Positions 6,717 to 14,362 of a stretch of DNA of 25,846 nt are shown here, in pieces. A program made the position numbers and the translations under genes. The notes beneath the pieces are model-generated. The model saw nothing but the letters and a program-made list of their open reading frames with translations, searched no databases and had not been told where the DNA came from. Numbering within the stretch: the stretch's first letter is position 1; each line of letters begins with the position of its first letter. This DNA is from a virus. The DNA lies in IMG/VR virus record IMGVR_UViG_3300037042_005304, positions 1 to 25,846 of that record; one strand, given 5' to 3'.

Positions 6717-8707
6717 TACTTGAGCCTCTTCGTCTTCCGCAGCATGCCCGCCACATAGGCATCCGCTTCGCGGTAGTCGTTCAGCACCAGCTTCATTTCC
6801 TGGCCTTGCACTTCGTAATACACGCCGACGACTTGCAAGAAGCGGGAATCGGCCCCGCCTTTGTTGAGGCCGAATTGGATTTCGCGGCCCTGCATGCCCA
6901 CCACCAGGTCGCCGATCTTGTAGTCGTGCTCCAAACCTTCCAGCGTGGCGTAGCCCGAGCAACCGGCCTGATCCCAAGCGTCGCGGGTGACGTTGGCAAA
7001 ATCCTGTAGCGCCACCTGGCCGTAGGTTTGGTCCGCCTTCTTCGTGCCGGCGGTGACTTCGCTGTAATAGACGCTCTGCGGATGCAGCAGGCGGGCGTGG
7101 AAGCGGGCCCCCACGTCGGCCACGAACTCATTAGTCTGCTTATTGACGCTGGACGAGCGGCGCGCGGCGGTCGCCACTATGCGGGTATCGCTGACGAGGG
7201 TGGCGGTGATCCGCAGGCGGGCTTCCACGCCGTCGCGGCGAATCGGGAAGGGGGCCGAGCCGCCATCGAACTTGATGCCGGCTTCGTTCTCGAGCAGGCG
7301 GCAGGAGAAGAACGGGAATCGCGGGTCGATCGGATCCCAGCCCGCGCCACCCTTCTTGCGCGCGTTCCACCATTCGACGAGGCAGCCGCCCGTGGGCCCG
7401 AACGGCTGTCCGTCGTCGCCCAGTGTCAGCATCGGCATGAACTTCCGCCGCTTCGGCATGATGACCGGATGATCCGCGCCATACACGTCGCGGAAGAACT
7501 GCGTCAGCTTGGGGTTGGCGGCAAGCTTGGGAAAGGCGGTGTTCCAGCCGCGATAATAGTCGCCGGCTTCGTTCAGCACCCATTCCCGCCAGACGCGATG
7601 GTACTGTGGGGTATTTTTCCAGGCGAAGTTGCCGTTATAGAGGTTCCCCAGGCTTGTGCTGTCGTAGGCGGCCCCCCAGGCCGGCATCAATTCGAAGGTG
7701 GCCTCGATCGCGGTGAAACCGCCGACGGCCCGCACCTGATTGACGGCCATCGACTCATCGTAGGTCAGCTTGAATTGCTTGACGTTCGAGCGGGTGTTGT
7801 CGAGCGAGGCTCCGGGCGCTTGGAGCTGAATGGCGCGGGAGCGGCCGAGTCCGTTCCGGATGAGGCGGATCCGCCGGCTGGTGGGCGATTCGTGGTCGAC
7901 CGTCCAGGTGTAGCCGTAGGGGTCCAGCAGCAGGTCCAAGGCTTCGTTGAGATAACAGCCCAGCCGCAGGCGGTGATTCTTCACGATCCGGCGATCGTCG
8001 GGAAGGATCGCCTTGATTTGCTGGAGAGTCGGATTCTGAATGAATTGCTGGAGCGAGTTGCAATCTTGAAACAAATAGGCCGCCGCGTCCGCCAGCGACC
8101 AGTTTTCATTCATGCTCTCGCTGATCCGCAGCAAGTTGTTCGGTTCGACGTAGGCCACGCCTTGCACCACCGCCGCGAACGACGATTGCAGGCTGTCGGG
8201 GTCGATGAACGCGAGCGACGTGGCGTTCCCCTCGCCGGGCGGCCGCTTGTTGCCGAAGATCGCGCCCTTGTAGTCGGGGTTGAAAGCTACTTCGTGATCG
8301 CTGCGGGTGTAGGTCCGCGTGGTTGGATCCCACACGAGCTGGAATCCCAGCGGGAAGCCGAAGTGGCTTTGCTCCAGCCGGCAGACCAGGGCAATCTGAT
8401 CCGGAATGGCGAGCTCGTAAACCGTGGTGCTGCCCCAGTGCAGCGTTTGGCTGAGGCCGTTGACCTCCGCCTGAATCGACATTTCCGCGCCGTTCAAATT
8501 GATCGGGCCGGAAGGCGATTGCACCGTGAGCGAGGCCAGGTCCAGGTTTTCCACATACTTGTTGGCCGCGGCCAGATCGACGGCGACCACGGCATGATCG
8601 AGCTGCTTGCCGCCGGCCAGCTTCTCGATCGAGAGGACGCGGAAGATCGCCGGCGTGAGTCCGGTGATCGACGCAAACGGCACGACGCCATCGCGGGAGA
8701 CGGGCAT
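6716..8707 (-). CDS. Tail hub / baseplate-like protein (663 aa)
   Basis: The ATG at 8707 overlaps the upstream stop as TAATG. The N-terminal 130 residues look like a beta-domain (MPVSRDGVVPFASITGLTP). A middle part reads LNEALDLLLDPYGYTWTVDH followed by RRIRLIRNG, a pattern typical of phage tail hub proteins (gp27/GpD-like folds). Near the C-terminus, GYATLEGLEHDYKIGDLV then a VVGVYYEVQGQEMKLVLNDY stretch matches the closing beta-barrel segment seen in hub proteins. The position after the tape measure and one small gene is where a siphophage hub gene sits. Hub identity is inferred from pattern and position, not from a full family match. Confidence 0.6.
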   Translation of the reverse strand: MPVSRDGVVPFASITGLTPAIFRVLSIEKLAGGKQLDHAVVAVDLAAANKYVENLDLASLTVQSPSGPINLNGAEMSIQAEVNGLSQTLHWGSTTVYELAIPDQIALVCRLEQSHFGFPLGFQLVWDPTTRTYTRSDHEVAFNPDYKGAIFGNKRPPGEGNATSLAFIDPDSLQSSFAAVVQGVAYVEPNNLLRISESMNENWSLADAAAYLFQDCNSLQQFIQNPTLQQIKAILPDDRRIVKNHRLRLGCYLNEALDLLLDPYGYTWTVDHESPTSRRIRLIRNGLGRSRAIQLQAPGASLDNTRSNVKQFKLTYDESMAVNQVRAVGGFTAIEATFELMPAWGAAYDSTSLGNLYNGNFAWKNTPQYHRVWREWVLNEAGDYYRGWNTAFPKLAANPKLTQFFRDVYGADHPVIMPKRRKFMPMLTLGDDGQPFGPTGGCLVEWWNARKKGGAGWDPIDPRFPFFSCRLLENEAGIKFDGGSAPFPIRRDGVEARLRITATLVSDTRIVATAARRSSSVNKQTNEFVADVGARFHARLLHPQSVYYSEVTAGTKKADQTYGQVALQDFANVTRDAWDQAGCSGYATLEGLEHDYKIGDLVVGMQGREIQFGLNKGGADSRFLQVVGVYYEVQGQEMKLVLNDYREADAYVAGMLRKTKRLK

Positions 8708-9141
8708 TATTCGTCCCCGATCTTGAGTTGTCGCCAGGCCAGCACACCACGCACCCACCAGCTCGGATTCGCACCGTCCAGCGTGCCCACCTGATCCGCC
8801 AGCGGCCCGCTATCGGGCGATTGATCCTTGGCAAAGCCCTCGAACGTGCAATTGCGGAACGTCCGCGGCACGCCGCCCCAGGCTCCCCGGCTGACAATGA
8901 GCTGGCTGTGCGTCCCCACCAGGCGATCCAGCCGCTCCAGCTCGTTCACCAGCGCCCCGCTGGTTTCGTAGCGGTTGTGGAGCACGATCACGGCGTAGAG
9001 CATGCGCGCCTTACGGCCGAGGCGGATCTCGCTCTCGCCGATCACGCCGGCGAACTCGGTGCGCACGGTCTGGAGCGTCGGCGGCGAATGAATCACCGAT
9101 TCGTGGGTGCCGTAGATGTACGCGCCGTTGAATTGGAGCAT
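8707..9141 (-). CDS. Small tail protein between tape measure and hub (144 aa)
   Basis: The ATG at 9141 lies 20 bases after the tape-measure stop, and the 3' end overlaps the hub gene start (TAATG). The N-terminus MLQFNGAYIYGTHESVIHS is followed by VRTEFAGVIGE and a Trp-rich end (NPSWWVRGVLAW). In siphophages this slot usually holds a distal-tail or minor tail protein that links tube and hub, so a tail-tip connector role is likely. No specific family is recognised. Confidence 0.6.
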   Translation of the reverse strand: MLQFNGAYIYGTHESVIHSPPTLQTVRTEFAGVIGESEIRLGRKARMLYAVIVLHNRYETSGALVNELERLDRLVGTHSQLIVSRGAWGGVPRTFRNCTFEGFAKDQSPDSGPLADQVGTLDGANPSWWVRGVLAWRQLKIGDE

Positions 9142-9161: not shown

Positions 9162-11084
9162 CTAGTCCGTGTCAGGGTCGTTGAATTGTTCCAGGGCCCG
9201 CGGCCGCGATGTGCTGCGCCCGAGCTGGCGGCCCAGGCCGTCTTCGACTTGCACGTTCACCGCCAGCGGATTCTTGCTATAGCCGTGCAGGGCGGCCGTC
9301 AGTTCGCCCACGGCTTGCAGGAGGGCCGCTTGATCGGTGCTGCCGGACGTGGCCGCCCCAGCCGCGCGGGGCCCACGCGAGGAGCGACCGGGCTTGCCGC
9401 CGGCGGGCGTTTGCAAGAACGTGTCGAAAGCGCCGACGATCGCCCGCTGATCTTCCGGCATCGTTTCCCGGCGGTACTCTTCGAAGACACTCCGCGGGTA
9501 GGGTTCGCTATCGCGGCTGAACACGGTTCCCCACACGCCGCGGTGTTGGTCCGGGCGATTCTTTTTGGCCCAGTCCAGAAAGTTGGGGTCAGTCTGCGGC
9601 GTGGTCTTATACAGCATGTCCTGAATTGACTGCTGGACGGCCGCCCGCTGCAGCTCTTCAATCTCAGCGGGCGTTTTGCCGCTGGACTGGAGATTCGCGG
9701 AAATGCCGCGAAACTTCTGTTGCAAGTCCCCCGTGCCGGTGATGCTCCCCAATTCCTCGACGAGCTGATTGAAAGAGCCCTGTTGGGCCATCGTGGTGTT
9801 CTGAAACTGCGCGTACTGGATGGCCCCTTTGATCTTCCGCTGGTTCTCGAAATACTTTTCCTGGTTATTGGACTTTTCCAAATTGATCCGCGAATCGACC
9901 AGCCCCTCCGCCGCTTTGCCGGTCTTCACGTGCGACATGGTTTTACGCACGTCTTCCATCAAGGTCTTGTTGGGATCCAGCAGCGCTTCGCCGACTTCTT
10001 TGCCGCCAGCTTCCCCCTGCAGCGCCCCTTGGTGCATGCCGCTGGGATCGATCATGAAGGCCATTTCCCGCTCTTCTTTCGTTTTGGGAGCGAGGTAGGC
10101 TCGCATCATCATGCCGGTTTCCGTCTTCGATCGGGCGATGTCGATTTGCTTGAGGCCGGCGGTGTTGAACTCATCGATCGACATTTCCCGCCCCTTCTCG
10201 TCGACGTAGGGCGAGCCGTAGACCGAGGCAAACTGATAAGCCGCTTTCAGGCTCTTCTCCAGCAGCAGGCCCGAGGTGCGCGTGCGCCGCATATCGGGAT
10301 CGCCCATGTTCTGGCCCAGCACGCTGGACAGCGCGCCGGCCTCCTCGCGGCTGAATCCGGCATGTTCCACCAGCGGATTCTCGAACTGCATCTGATACTT
10401 GAGCTTGCCCATATCGACGGCCGTCGAAAGGGGGAACTCGCTCAAGATCGTGCCCAGCACTTCCTTGGCGGTGGTTTTCTTCTTGCGGCGGCGATCGACC
10501 TGCATCGACAAGATCAGGGCCGTCATCAGTTGCTCGGTGTCTTCTTGCGGCATCCCCTCCGCGCCAGCCAGCTTGTTGACGAGTGTGGCCGCGTCGGCTA
10601 CTTCCCCGGGCTCAATCAAAGCGCCCGCGGCGCTGAAAGCATTGGCCGCCACGGAGAGCGCGTTATTCGCGTCGCCGCGGCCCATGATGCTCTGCTTGAT
10701 CATTTCCTTGAACTTCGGGCTGCGCTGAAACTCGTCGCTGGTTTGTAGCGTCAGCCGTCGATACGGCTCGTGAGTTTGATCCAAACCTTCCATGGCCTTG
10801 CTGCGGTTGGCCACGACCCGCTCGTACTCGTTGTTGATCTGCCCGATGGCCATGTAGAGGGCCGAGGCTCCAGTGAGCATCTTGGCGAAGGCGGCAGGAT
10901 AGGATTGCAGCGTCCCCAGCATCTTGCCGTAGGATTCGCCCGCGTCGTCGCCCGCCTTCTTCATCTTCTGGCCGGCATCGCCACCCACGCGGCCGACGCC
11001 TTCGGCGGCTTGCGACACCTGCAGGAAGCCGGCGATCGCCTGCGCGTGCTGCGTGGAGACTTCGAAGACGACGGACTGGCCCAT
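9162..11084 (-). CDS. Tail tape measure protein (640 aa)
   Basis: The ATG at 11084 starts MGQSVVFEVSTQHAQAIAGF, followed by a Gln/Ala/Lys-rich, largely helical protein. The N-terminal 60 residues (AEGVGRVGGDAGQKMKKAGD) are typical of tape measure proteins. It lies directly after the frameshifting chaperone gene and before the tail-tip genes, the diagnostic position. Tape measure proteins set tail length and occupy the tube. At the usual rule of about 0.15 nm per residue, 640 residues would predict a tail near 95 nm if it is not processed. Only one short hydrophobic stretch is seen (FAKMLTGASALYMAIG). No lytic-transglycosylase domain is evident. Confidence 0.85.
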   Translation of the reverse strand: MGQSVVFEVSTQHAQAIAGFLQVSQAAEGVGRVGGDAGQKMKKAGDDAGESYGKMLGTLQSYPAAFAKMLTGASALYMAIGQINNEYERVVANRSKAMEGLDQTHEPYRRLTLQTSDEFQRSPKFKEMIKQSIMGRGDANNALSVAANAFSAAGALIEPGEVADAATLVNKLAGAEGMPQEDTEQLMTALILSMQVDRRRKKKTTAKEVLGTILSEFPLSTAVDMGKLKYQMQFENPLVEHAGFSREEAGALSSVLGQNMGDPDMRRTRTSGLLLEKSLKAAYQFASVYGSPYVDEKGREMSIDEFNTAGLKQIDIARSKTETGMMMRAYLAPKTKEEREMAFMIDPSGMHQGALQGEAGGKEVGEALLDPNKTLMEDVRKTMSHVKTGKAAEGLVDSRINLEKSNNQEKYFENQRKIKGAIQYAQFQNTTMAQQGSFNQLVEELGSITGTGDLQQKFRGISANLQSSGKTPAEIEELQRAAVQQSIQDMLYKTTPQTDPNFLDWAKKNRPDQHRGVWGTVFSRDSEPYPRSVFEEYRRETMPEDQRAIVGAFDTFLQTPAGGKPGRSSRGPRAAGAATSGSTDQAALLQAVGELTAALHGYSKNPLAVNVQVEDGLGRQLGRSTSRPRALEQFNDPDTD

Positions 11085-11100
11085 GATGAATCTCGGGGGT

Positions 11101-11924
11101 TTAGGCGATCGGCTGCTGCCAACGCGACAACGGGCTCATTTCCTCAGCGAAGAAATACCGATCAAAAAACGTGGGTCGATAGTCCAGCGGTGCCATGCCT
11201 TTGATCCACAACAGGTAGCGGAGGTAACTGGGATGGTGACTCACGCCCCCCCGCTTTTTTTTTCCGCGCTGACCGCCAGGATGGGTTGCATATCGACGGT
11301 GGCCGCCAGGATCTCGCCGCCCGAGCGATCGCCGATCAGCCCCAGGGCCGCGATGATCGGCGGCGCGAGCTTGTAGACGAGCATCAGGGCCGTGTGCACG
11401 TAGTCCAGGTCGGCTTTGATTTGCCAGGTATCGGGATTGGCGTTGTTTTGGACAAACATCAGGAACACTCGCTCTGCTTCGCGGCAAAACTCCTTGTAGG
11501 CGTCCTTGGGGACGCGCAGGTGCTCGCCGGCGTCGTCCATGCCCCACAGGTGCGGCAGCGACTCGGCCGAAGGGATCCGCCAGGCGTTGCCGTCCTCGAG
11601 CTGCACGGGATAGGTGCGGGCGGCTGGGCAGCGGTGCCGCTGAATGTCACCCGGGTGCAGGGGGCGTTCGTGGTGCGTGCCAATCCAGAACTTCTTGCCC
11701 GGCGCTTCGCGCCAGGTTTGCTTCTCCGGGTGAAACTCGGGGATGCCGGCGAAGTCACGATCCAGCCAATAGCCCAACATGCCGGCCGTCTGATTGGGCC
11801 CGGCGGGCGAGGGAGCCCAGATCATGGCGCTTTCTTCGCGCTGGATTTCAGCAAGGCCCAATTCGTCGACGAGCTGCTGCGGATGCTGCCGCACGCCGTC
11901 GACCCATAGCATGTATGCGCTCAT
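11101..11924 (-). CDS. Tail assembly chaperone, -1 frameshift extended form (274 aa)
   Basis: A -1 slip on the A9 run at 11255-11263 joins the first 223 residues of the short form to 51 residues in the -1 frame (KRGGVSHHPS onward), ending at a TAA at 11101, 16 bases before the tape measure ATG. The extension is rich in aromatic residues (YLRYLLW, YRPTFFDRYFF), looks protein-like, and has no convincing start of its own. This is the gpG/gpGT arrangement known from lambda, where the shifted T domain binds the tail tube protein. That the slip occurs is inferred from sequence only. Confidence 0.6.
11241..11924 (-). CDS. Tail assembly chaperone, unshifted short form (227 aa)
   Basis: The ATG at 11924 begins MSAYMLWVDGVRQ. 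The frame ends in SAEKKSGGA then TGA at 11241-11243. The gene sits immediately upstream of the tape measure, where lambda gpG and its relatives lie. These chaperones coat the tape measure during tail assembly and are absent from the virion. The central part is acidic and mixed helical. Residues about 176-194 (VHTALMLVYKLAPPIIAAL) are hydrophobic. No sequence family is recognised, so the call rests on position and the frameshift signal at its 3' end. No clear ribosome binding site is seen. The sequence just upstream is one arm of a large inverted repeat. An alternative start is the ATG at 11912. Confidence 0.65.
   Translation of the reverse strand: MSAYMLWVDGVRQHPQQLVDELGLAEIQREESAMIWAPSPAGPNQTAGMLGYWLDRDFAGIPEFHPEKQTWREAPGKKFWIGTHHERPLHPGDIQRHRCPAARTYPVQLEDGNAWRIPSAESLPHLWGMDDAGEHLRVPKDAYKEFCREAERVFLMFVQNNANPDTWQIKADLDYVHTALMLVYKLAPPIIAALGLIGDRSGGEILAATVDMQPILAVSAEKKSGGA
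11246..11263 (-). other. Candidate -1 programmed frameshift site
   Basis: In the zero frame the codons are GCG GAA AAA AAA AGC GGG GGG GCG TGA. The stretch A AAA AAA (last base of GAA plus two Lys codons) fits the X XXY YYZ slippery rule. A G7 run (11246-11252) follows two bases after the A9 run. I see no strong downstream stem-loop. Long homopolymers are also typical places for sequencing error, which must be excluded. Confidence 0.65.
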
Positions 11925-11928
11925 GTTG

Positions 11929-12040
11929 CGTAGTGGTCGCTGGTCAGTGGTTCTTGGGTTGTAAACAAGGCCGTGCTCAAGGTTTGGTTAATGGCTGTCC
12001 TTCGTACTAGCCAGGAACCACTGACCAGTCGGCCACTACG
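11929..12040. repeat. Large imperfect inverted repeat between tail genes
   Basis: Arms 11929-11957 and 12011-12040 are complementary over about 29 bases with two mismatches and one inserted base, around a 53-base centre. A perfect 14-base core pairs 11940-11953 with 12015-12028. The element nearly fills the 116-base gap between the 446-aa gene stop and the chaperone ATG, and the left arm ends only four bases upstream of that ATG. It could be an RNA hairpin limiting chaperone expression, a weak transcription stop, or a small palindromic mobile element. Confidence 0.75.
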
Positions 12041-13381
12041 TCAGGCAATTACGCTGTCCAAAATGTTCTCGCCGCCGCTGGCGTGACTGGGCAAAACCAA
12101 GCCCATCCCCGGCATATCGAAGTTGCGCCAAAAGGCGGTTTGCAAAGCTCCGCCGTAGTCGTTCGTCACGGCCAGCGAAAACACGTCGTCCAGGCTGAAT
12201 GCCACGTCTCCCGTAAAGACGGCGCAATAGGGGCCCCCCGTGTAAAGTTGGTCCGCCAGTCCCAGGGCGAAGTGATCGAGGTACAGAATCCGGGTGTTGG
12301 TCAGGGCCGTGCTCAGCCGCAGCCGCAGGAACACGCTCGCCGGCACGGGCTCGGGCAGGCGGAACATGGCGTGGTGCGCTTCGAAGTCCGTATCGCTGAC
12401 CGTGGTCAGGTCAATGACCAGGGTGTTGGCGTTGCCCGCGTCGTCGTCAATGACGCCCACGCCGTCGTAGAGGTCGATGGTCAGCACGCCGGCCGCCGGC
12501 GTGGTGTCGGTCAGCAGCCAGCCGCAGAGGGCGTAAGGCCGCTTGGCCAGGAGCCCCACGGCGGACAGATCCCGCCGCAACTGGGTCAGCGTCGCGCCGT
12601 CCCCCGCCAGGGCCAGGCCGCTGTCGCCCACGAAGACGTCGGTCGTTTCCTCCAGCACATCGGTGCCGGCGACGCCGACCGTAATCGTCCAGTCGTCCGG
12701 CGTATCGGCCACGGTGAACGTCTCAAATGCGCCGCTGCCGCTCAGCAGGTCACCATCGCCGCCGGCGGTGATCGTGGCCACTTGCTTGCTGGCCGCGCTT
12801 CCTTTCGGCCAGTCGTGGTTCAGCGCGCCGTAGACGGCCGCTGCCTCACCCGCGAAAAGGGCCGTCGTGGTGCCGGTGAACGAGACGTCGATCGTCTCGT
12901 CGTAGCAATACTCCAGCGTCCGGCCCGCGCCGTCGAGCTTGCTGACCACCATCGCCCCGCTCCCCACGTTGCCAACGCCGGCCGTGGCCGTGACCGTGAT
13001 CGCGTTAGCGTCCACCGTCTTGGCGTCGACACCCATCAGCCGAATCAGCTCGGTCATGGCGGTCTTCAAGTCACGCCGCTCCAGCGGCGACTCGGTATCG
13101 ACGGTCACCAGCAGCGTGGCGCTGAGTGCCTGTTGGACCCACGTTTGGAAGTTATTCAGGCCGTCTTTGGCCCGCTGCAATTCTTCCGTGGGATTCCCCA
13201 GCGCGGCCCGCAGCGGCGCGGCCTCGCCGTCATATTGCTCCACGAAATCTTCCCATTCCGTGGGCAGATCGGTGGCGATGGCTCCGCTATTGAGCGGGCC
13301 GCCGCGAAACTCATTGACCAGGTTGGCCGCGTAGATGGCGCGGCCGATCCGGTCGAACAGATCCGCATAGTTGAGTGCCAT
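12041..13381 (-). CDS. Virion structural protein with a possible carbohydrate-binding domain (446 aa)
   Basis: The ATG at 13381 lies 12 bases after the upstream stop. Residues 1-120 are mostly helical (MALNYADLFDRIGRAIYAAN onward), and the rest is beta-rich, Gly/Thr/Asp-rich sequence. In about the last 200 residues, patterns such as YALCGWLLTD, VLTIDLYDG, MFRLPEPVPASVFLRLRLS and ILYLDHFALG resemble the jelly-roll layout of family 4/9/22-type carbohydrate-binding modules, often appended to virion proteins. The position between the tube candidate and the chaperone suggests a second tail shaft or tail decoration protein. Function is inferred only. Confidence 0.65.
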   Translation of the reverse strand: MALNYADLFDRIGRAIYAANLVNEFRGGPLNSGAIATDLPTEWEDFVEQYDGEAAPLRAALGNPTEELQRAKDGLNNFQTWVQQALSATLLVTVDTESPLERRDLKTAMTELIRLMGVDAKTVDANAITVTATAGVGNVGSGAMVVSKLDGAGRTLEYCYDETIDVSFTGTTTALFAGEAAAVYGALNHDWPKGSAASKQVATITAGGDGDLLSGSGAFETFTVADTPDDWTITVGVAGTDVLEETTDVFVGDSGLALAGDGATLTQLRRDLSAVGLLAKRPYALCGWLLTDTTPAAGVLTIDLYDGVGVIDDDAGNANTLVIDLTTVSDTDFEAHHAMFRLPEPVPASVFLRLRLSTALTNTRILYLDHFALGLADQLYTGGPYCAVFTGDVAFSLDDVFSLAVTNDYGGALQTAFWRNFDMPGMGLVLPSHASGGENILDSVIA

Positions 13382-13393
13382 GCCGCCGTGCTC

Positions 13394-14362
13394 TTAAAGG
13401 ATTTGCTGATTGGAAGAAAAGCTGATGCCGTTCGTCGGTCGCACGACGATCACGCCGCGGCCGTCGTCGAGCCCCGAGACGCTGATTTCGTCCGTGGTGT
13501 CATCGCCCGTTTGGGCGGTAATCACCATATGCGCGGCCGTGGCATCGCTCACGCGGAAGCCGCCGTGGATGCCCTTCGACAGATAGATGTTGAAAGCCGT
13601 GTTGGCGATGAAGGCGTGGCCGAACATGCTGGTCAAAAACTGCGTGGTCGCGTCGAGATCGAGCGTTTCGATGCGAATCTCGGGCACGATGCTGTAGATC
13701 GAGCCGTTGATCGAGAAGGTGCAGCCATCGGCGCGGGGCGAGCGGTAGTCGATGCCGGACTTGATGCTGACGCTCTGCACGCCCGGCAGATTGGCCAGCG
13801 AGCCGCCGATTTGGCCGATCCGCACGGGCCCCAGGTAGAAAATTCCGTTGAAGTTAGGGCTGCTGGTGAGCGTGGTGGCATCGAACACGGTCAGGGGCGA
13901 CGTCGTGCCGTCGAGCGAGTGCAGCGGATACTGGAGCGTCGCGGTCACGCCCCGTTCGTCATCCTGGCGGGCCATGATCTCCGAGACATAGAGGAAGCCC
14001 TTGCTGCTTTGCGCGACGATATGGGCCCCCGTGCCGGCGGCGGTGAACGTCCCACCGTCGCTGCGCACCTGAAACTGCAGCAGCGACGTTTGGTTGCCTT
14101 CAGCGCTATCGGGGCCGACCGCATGGCCGCCCTGGAGGGAAACCGCGGGCGAGCCAGCGAACAGTGCCACCAGATCCTTCGTCGAGCATTGCACCATCGG
14201 ATCGGCGCAGCAGGTGACGATGGCCCGCGGGTGGACGTCACCGCCCGGGATGACCACGCTCTTCTTGGCTTGCGAACGAATCGAGAGGTCGAACAGATCG
14301 CGCAGCAAAATGCCGCCGAACCGGGCCGCGTACAGCGAATAACGATCGAAGGGGCCGGGCAT
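13394..14362 (-). CDS. Candidate major tail tube protein (322 aa)
   Basis: The ATG at 14362 has an AGGAG 7-8 bases upstream, one of the better ribosome binding sites here, as expected for an abundant product. The protein is beta-rich. A stretch around residues 175-245 (FYLGPVRIGQIGGSLANLPG, VSIKSGIDY, VPEIRIETLDLDATTQFL) has the look of phage tube proteins, which carry a conserved strand order near a GP...I motif. It lies after the head-tail joining candidates and before the chaperone, where lambda V sits. It is larger than gpV. The neighbouring 446-aa product is the alternative tube candidate. Confidence 0.5.
   Translation of the reverse strand: MPGPFDRYSLYAARFGGILLRDLFDLSIRSQAKKSVVIPGGDVHPRAIVTCCADPMVQCSTKDLVALFAGSPAVSLQGGHAVGPDSAEGNQTSLLQFQVRSDGGTFTAAGTGAHIVAQSSKGFLYVSEIMARQDDERGVTATLQYPLHSLDGTTSPLTVFDATTLTSSPNFNGIFYLGPVRIGQIGGSLANLPGVQSVSIKSGIDYRSPRADGCTFSINGSIYSIVPEIRIETLDLDATTQFLTSMFGHAFIANTAFNIYLSKGIHGGFRVSDATAAHMVITAQTGDDTTDEISVSGLDDGRGVIVVRPTNGISFSSNQQIL

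Follow-up and report, generated by a model that had tools for sequence, protein, structure and literature searches.

The stretch of DNA analysed here, a 25,846-base metavirome record (the window), carries its main genes on the minus strand. In order, these comprise a terminase, probable portal and capsid genes, small head-tail genes, a probable major tail protein, a 446-aa gene, a putative tail-assembly chaperone, a candidate tape measure, and distal tail genes; module roles that lack a profile match were assigned by position. The putative chaperone, a gpG-like protein of 227 aa (11241..11924, minus strand), is defined by its open reading frame and by homologs in the loci L002, L011, L013, L021, and L042 and in Planctomycetota genomes. 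Its 3' end reads GCG GAA AAA AAA AGC GGG GGG GCG TGA and includes a run of nine adenines (A9; 11255..11263, minus strand), within which lies an in-phase heptamer, A_AAA_AAA (11262-11256, minus strand), with the in-phase X_XXY_YYZ pattern required of a ribosomal -1 site. Shifting to the -1 frame on this heptamer opens a gpT-like extension (11101..11262, minus strand) of 51 residues after the slip, for a total of 274 aa, which terminates at a TAG (11103-11101, minus strand) and leaves a gap of 16 bases to the ATG (11084) of the tape-measure candidate. We rechecked the open reading frame, the A9 run, the G7 run that follows it, the stop, and the tape-measure start, and all coordinates given in a preliminary description of this DNA were right; the A9-GC-G7 tract, the 227- and 274-aa reading frames, the length of the extension, and the 16-base gap that it had reported are likewise present in the sequence.

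Under a first-order Markov model, about 0.09 A9/T9 runs are expected in the window, and one is seen. The preliminary description had also considered the G7 run 3' of the A9 run (11246..11252, minus strand) to be unusual. This impression did not hold: given the dinucleotide content of the window, about 6.7 G7/C7 runs would be expected and one is seen, and conservation of the run was looked for in relatives and not found. The G7 run thus carries no weight and is probably incidental. One further feature had been missed, a GTG in the -1 frame (11244-11242, minus strand) that overlaps the zero-frame TGA (11243-11241) and represents a possible but unlikely restart codon.

The tape-measure candidate (640 aa; 9162..11084, minus strand) was assigned by its position, by its homolog in L002, and by its counterpart in L191, a planctomycete-group genome in which the gene after the chaperone matches a tape-measure family in both Pfam (PF10145, E = 4e-18) and PHROGs (E = 1e-6). 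The chaperone lies directly upstream of a tape measure assigned by position in the window and in L002, and of a recognised one in L191. Within the same module, L192 encodes a lambda-family portal. On either side, the window encodes a 144-aa gene after the tape measure, probably the distal tail protein by its position (8707..9141, minus strand), the 446-aa gene upstream of the chaperone, which is conserved in relatives (12041..13381, minus strand), and a 322-aa gene that its position marks as the probable major tail protein (13394..14362, minus strand). When the window neighbours were tested against PHROGs and Pfam, nothing convincing was found except the terminase large subunit (GpA type).

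The chaperone itself had no match above threshold in Pfam, none of 34 family members matched PHROGs, and the -1 extension showed no similarity to the known T domains in Pfam. Single-protein searches of viral contigs and phage records with the chaperone or the tape measure returned no relative, and a two-sequence profile scan of genome contigs found nothing. The productive route led from the upstream 446-aa gene to the capsid protein and on to profile searches. The 446-aa gene recovered L002/L003, a contig that shares the gene order through the head and tail module, and a capsid profile recovered 80 further viral loci, among which L011, L013, L021, and L042/L043 hold both the gene and its extension. 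Of the genomes sampled around a Pirellulales metagenome-assembled genome (MAG), a six-sequence profile detected the gene in 12 of 392 from its phylum and in 18 of 396 from its order. A 34-sequence profile detected it in 16 of 170, 14 of 241, and 10 of 278 genomes from other groups centred on planctomycete members. It was also detected in 2 of 68 genomes sampled from the phylum around a Hydrogenedentota MAG and in one of 199 from the phylum around an Acidobacteria MAG, the latter on the same contig as L013 (group names are those of the MAGs used as sampling centres). Overall, the family is present in roughly 3-9% of the sampled Planctomycetota genomes. Since no Pfam or PHROG family covers the protein, we gathered 63 relatives in this manner, and the resulting set of 64 homologs comprises the window together with relatives from metavirome contigs and, mostly, Planctomycetota genomes. 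The IMG/VR contig of L013 corresponds in length and range to JALUUK010000408.1 (L091), which was binned in an Acidobacteria MAG, while most other relatives are planctomycete; assigning hosts by binning is doubtful.

Comparison across this set revealed that the slip site and the extension are kept together. An in-phase classical heptamer is found in 52 of the 64 homologs, and the -1 extension is present in 51 of those 52. Among the first 38 homologs collected, 34 carry such a heptamer close to the 3' end of the zero frame, and an extension is present in 33 of these; its conserved motif is W-x-x-G-L-x-P-x-[YH]-x-P-[TS]-x-[AF]-[DE]-L (in short form, WxxGLxPxYxPTxADL). In leave-one-out HMMs, the -1 frame scored above all 200 shuffles in 31 of 33 loci (12-58 bits), the exceptions being L117 and L120, while the other frames reached at most 2.1 bits. 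The same association was seen in a fresh set of 26 homologs that had been left out of the extension profile: 18 carry a heptamer, all 18 match the extension in the -1 frame (10-46 bits), and the other eight have neither heptamer nor extension. The fusion is thus not universal, as 12 of the 64 homologs lack a classical slip site as well as any detectable extension (L118, L125, L139, L141, L155, L157, L159, L160, L162, L164, L188, and L189); seven of them, L118, L155, L157, L159, L160, L162, and L164, share a region of the tree with L011 and L013. In these 12 homologs, the extension may have been lost or moved elsewhere.

The preserved extension is also constrained at the protein level. Aligned along the fused protein, the window and L002 are 45% identical, and the alignment includes 'EKKK-GVSH...PT-FDRYF'; the chaperone gene of L002 has an A10 run followed by a related extension in the downstream -1 frame. 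For seven pairs of sequences, pN/pS in the -1 frame ranged from 0.23 to 0.70 (0.46 for the window and L002), indicating purifying selection in that frame. Moreover, of the 28 runs of at least eight A's in 212 kb of homologous loci, 27 lie at the slip site. These sequence comparisons show that fusion to the -1 frame has been conserved. Relatives lacking a slippery site, or with unrelated sequence in the extension frame, would have spoken against the reading of the preliminary description; the relatives keep the slip site along with homologous -1 sequence. The L137/L144 site has an A8 run and the conserved extension in the +1 frame (41.8 bits), the offset expected from the loss of one A from A9, either in the assembly or in the phage.

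An AlphaFold2 (AF2) model of the zero-frame protein, fairly confident at pLDDT 80, assigns residues 1-139 to a beta-rich part and residues 141-223 to helices extending to the slip site. Foldseek searches of the model against the PDB and a viral library yielded no match with E <= 0.001 and no known chaperone fold, and the chaperone role hence rests on position and arrangement. This arrangement resembles that of lambda gpG/gpGT, found also in HK97, P2, and other long-tailed phages: the gene precedes the tape measure and encodes a short zero-frame protein, the -1 extension ends near the tape-measure start, and the slip site is kept despite low sequence similarity. In contrast to the lambda system, the present family has no detected sequence relation to any Pfam or PHROG family, and most of its sites are A9 runs lacking a stem-loop. 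Its zero-frame protein is also larger, at about 220-260 aa compared with about 140 aa for lambda gpG, with a beta-rich region predicted at the N terminus, ahead of the helices.

Taking the sequence evidence as a whole, we estimate a probability of about 0.88 that the window gene is a G/GT-type tail-assembly chaperone whose extension is reached by a programmed frame change, an estimate that leaves aside the mechanism of the slip. The comparative data strongly support the preliminary description on this point, which had placed a G/GT-type chaperone before the tape measure. The phage is a long-tailed one, of a kind found in planctomycetes, and its predicted chaperone represents an unnamed sequence family, outside Pfam and PHROGs, with an unusual split of slip signals. 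We infer the expression of the fusion, the division of labour between the G and GT forms, and the slip mechanism as follows. Normal decoding would produce the 227-aa G-like protein, and a share of the product would enter the -1 frame at the A9 run and acquire a 51-aa T-like tail. By analogy with lambda, the G part would coat the tape measure and the T part would recruit the major tail protein, with the balance between the two forms being important.

The slip signals of the family fall into two classes. The 49 non-redundant sites consist of 33 with A9, three with A10, three with A8, three with A7, six with GGGAAAC, and one with GGGAAAA, such that 36 of the 42 A-type sites have nine or ten A's and 33 have exactly nine. 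Of the A9 runs, 7 start at codon position 1, 18 at position 2, and 8 at position 3, and on the tree, in which many forks are weakly supported, the codon phase changes at least 11 times while the run length stays at nine. Finding a length of nine in all codon phases suggests that the homopolymer, and not the codons, is what is constrained. Sites with at least nine A's lack downstream structure (mean z -0.19, sem 0.18), and in the window the downstream sequence folds with z +1.66, 192 of 200 shuffles folding at least as well. Upstream Shine-Dalgarno stimulators are not enriched at the sites with at least nine A's (percentile 0.44), as opposed to percentiles of 0.25 for A7-8 sites and 0.24 for GGG sites, at both of which they are perhaps enriched. 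The GGGAAAC/GGGAAAA sites, on the other hand, have on average a stem-loop downstream (mean z -2.6 in 45 nt), and their folding differs from that of sites with at least nine A's (Mann-Whitney p = 4e-4); in L129, L131, L132, and L175, a GC-rich hairpin starts 5-7 nt downstream of the heptamer. One weakly supported group of the tree contains five of the seven GGG sites together with A7/A8 sites, and the other two, those of L111 and L183, are placed outside it, so the signal seems to have been switched more than once.

These patterns bear on two mechanisms. For the A9 members, we favour a model in which RNA polymerase would slip at the run and add one A to a share of the transcripts, whose standard translation would then give the fusion; we hold this at slightly better than even odds, and tandem ribosomal slip may contribute as well. 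The model is supported by the exact length of nine irrespective of codon phase and by the absence of ribosomal stimulators at the sites with at least nine A's, the window among them. Bacterial polymerases are known to slip with high efficiency at nine A's or T's (Atkins et al., PMC5009743), and a 9-A run of conserved length among homologs has been regarded as very likely to reflect purposeful transcriptional slippage (Baranov et al., PMC1088944); here, 33 A9 and 3 A10 runs among 49 sites reach that length. A precedent is dnaX, whose homologs use either mechanism (PMC5009743; Larsen et al. 2000, as cited in PMC3711429), with transcriptional slippage on an A9 run in Thermus thermophilus (PMC5009743, PMC1088944) and ribosomal frameshifting at a stimulated site in E. 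coli. However, dnaX is a cellular replication gene in which the frame change shortens the product, whereas here it extends the product of a phage gene, and the slippage proposed here, unlike that of Thermus, is predicted from sequence. In bacterial insertion sequence (IS) elements with 9A transcriptional slippage sites, a conserved 9-A run similarly joins two overlapping open reading frames (Baranov et al. 2005, PMC1088944), though in transposase genes rather than in virion assembly. Several points weigh against polymerase slippage: some orthologs clearly use non-homopolymer sites, an efficiency like that of Thermus dnaX (about half) would put the ratio of the two forms far from lambda's 30:1, and the literature searched, which covered few subscription papers, held no report of transcriptional slippage for a tail chaperone or a planctomycete.

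The closest competitor is a purely ribosomal -1 tandem slip on A_AAA_AAA, as in lambda G/GT, with the length of the A9 run either incidental or favouring sliding on Lys codons. Seven in-phase A's suffice for the ribosome, long A runs also favour ribosomal sliding, and a stimulator is not required at every ribosomal frameshift site. The window contains the in-phase heptamer, and the same -1 extension is kept by homologs with A7 sites (A_AAA_AAG, A_AAA_AAC) and by those with GGGAAAC and a stem-loop. Furthermore, lambda is documented to use ribosomal frameshifting (PMC5009743), and a frequency of 6-7% was measured for an HK97-like chaperone cluster (PMC3711429). Yet a ribosomal site would need only seven A's, while nearly all A-type sites of the family have nine or ten, with A9 runs in all three phases and, unlike the GGGAAAC sites, with neither a stem-loop nor a Shine-Dalgarno bias. 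We regard a purely ribosomal slip as a serious candidate that falls somewhat short of an even chance. Polymerase slippage, in turn, is only a modest favourite, because members with A7/A8 or GGGAAAC sites show the ribosome to be capable of the shift and because of the sliding on long A runs. The -1 frame change claimed in the preliminary description is strongly supported by comparison, but its ribosomal nature is not established for the A9 class.

Considering both classes together, the A9 class looks like RNA-polymerase slippage and the GGGAAAC/GGGAAAA class like classical ribosomal -1 frameshifting, and the GGGAAAC relatives almost certainly use the ribosome. We give roughly equal odds for and against a broader scenario: the family would make its G and GT forms mainly via polymerase slippage at an A9 run whose length is conserved, and within this one orthologous gene some lineages would have exchanged that signal, in one direction or the other, for ribosomal frameshifting at GGGAAAC followed by a stem-loop.

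Two further explanations require no slip at the A9 run. In the first, the -1 frame would be a separate, coupled gene that starts by termination-reinitiation at the GTG overlapping the TGA in the window. In L002, the corresponding codon is GTT and the closest start codon in that frame falls within the conserved region; zero-frame stops across the family are found 2-44 codons beyond the heptamer. Moreover, 15 of the 49 non-redundant extensions contain no ATG, GTG, or TTG, so that a restarted separate gene cannot explain the family and these extensions are most simply reached from the upstream frame; we consider this explanation highly improbable. The last, a homopolymer sequencing error or a pseudogene, would mean a true run length of 8 or 10 and a gene that is either uninterrupted or broken, and it has a negligible likelihood: the window is a single metagenomic record and homopolymers are error-prone, but the same -1 offset, mostly with the same A9, recurs in some 50 records and genomes, the GGGAAAC variants keep the extension with no long homopolymer, and selection acts on the extension.

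G/GT frameshifting has generally been treated as a conserved ribosomal event, and here one family holds both classes of signal. Its orthologs can thus be used to test whether tail assembly depends on the mechanism that sets the ratio of the two forms or on the ratio alone. The family and its motif can also serve to annotate tail modules of planctomycete phages that profile libraries miss.

Upstream of the chaperone, the conserved 446-aa gene has relatives with very different neighbours (L004, 5353-7149; L005, 6001-7308), and the L004 relative bears a Ser/Pro-rich tail. L004, L005, and L006 all match the 446-aa gene, yet no chaperone was found in the stretches of them that were examined. In the window, positions 11927-12043, which separate the 446-aa gene from the chaperone, contain a long and almost perfect inverted repeat (RNA folding energy -55 kcal/mol, z -8.3), and the same gap in L002 spans only 9 bases. 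A comparison of the repeat with plasmids gave no match; possible explanations are a small inserted element and a leader structure preceding the start of the chaperone gene.
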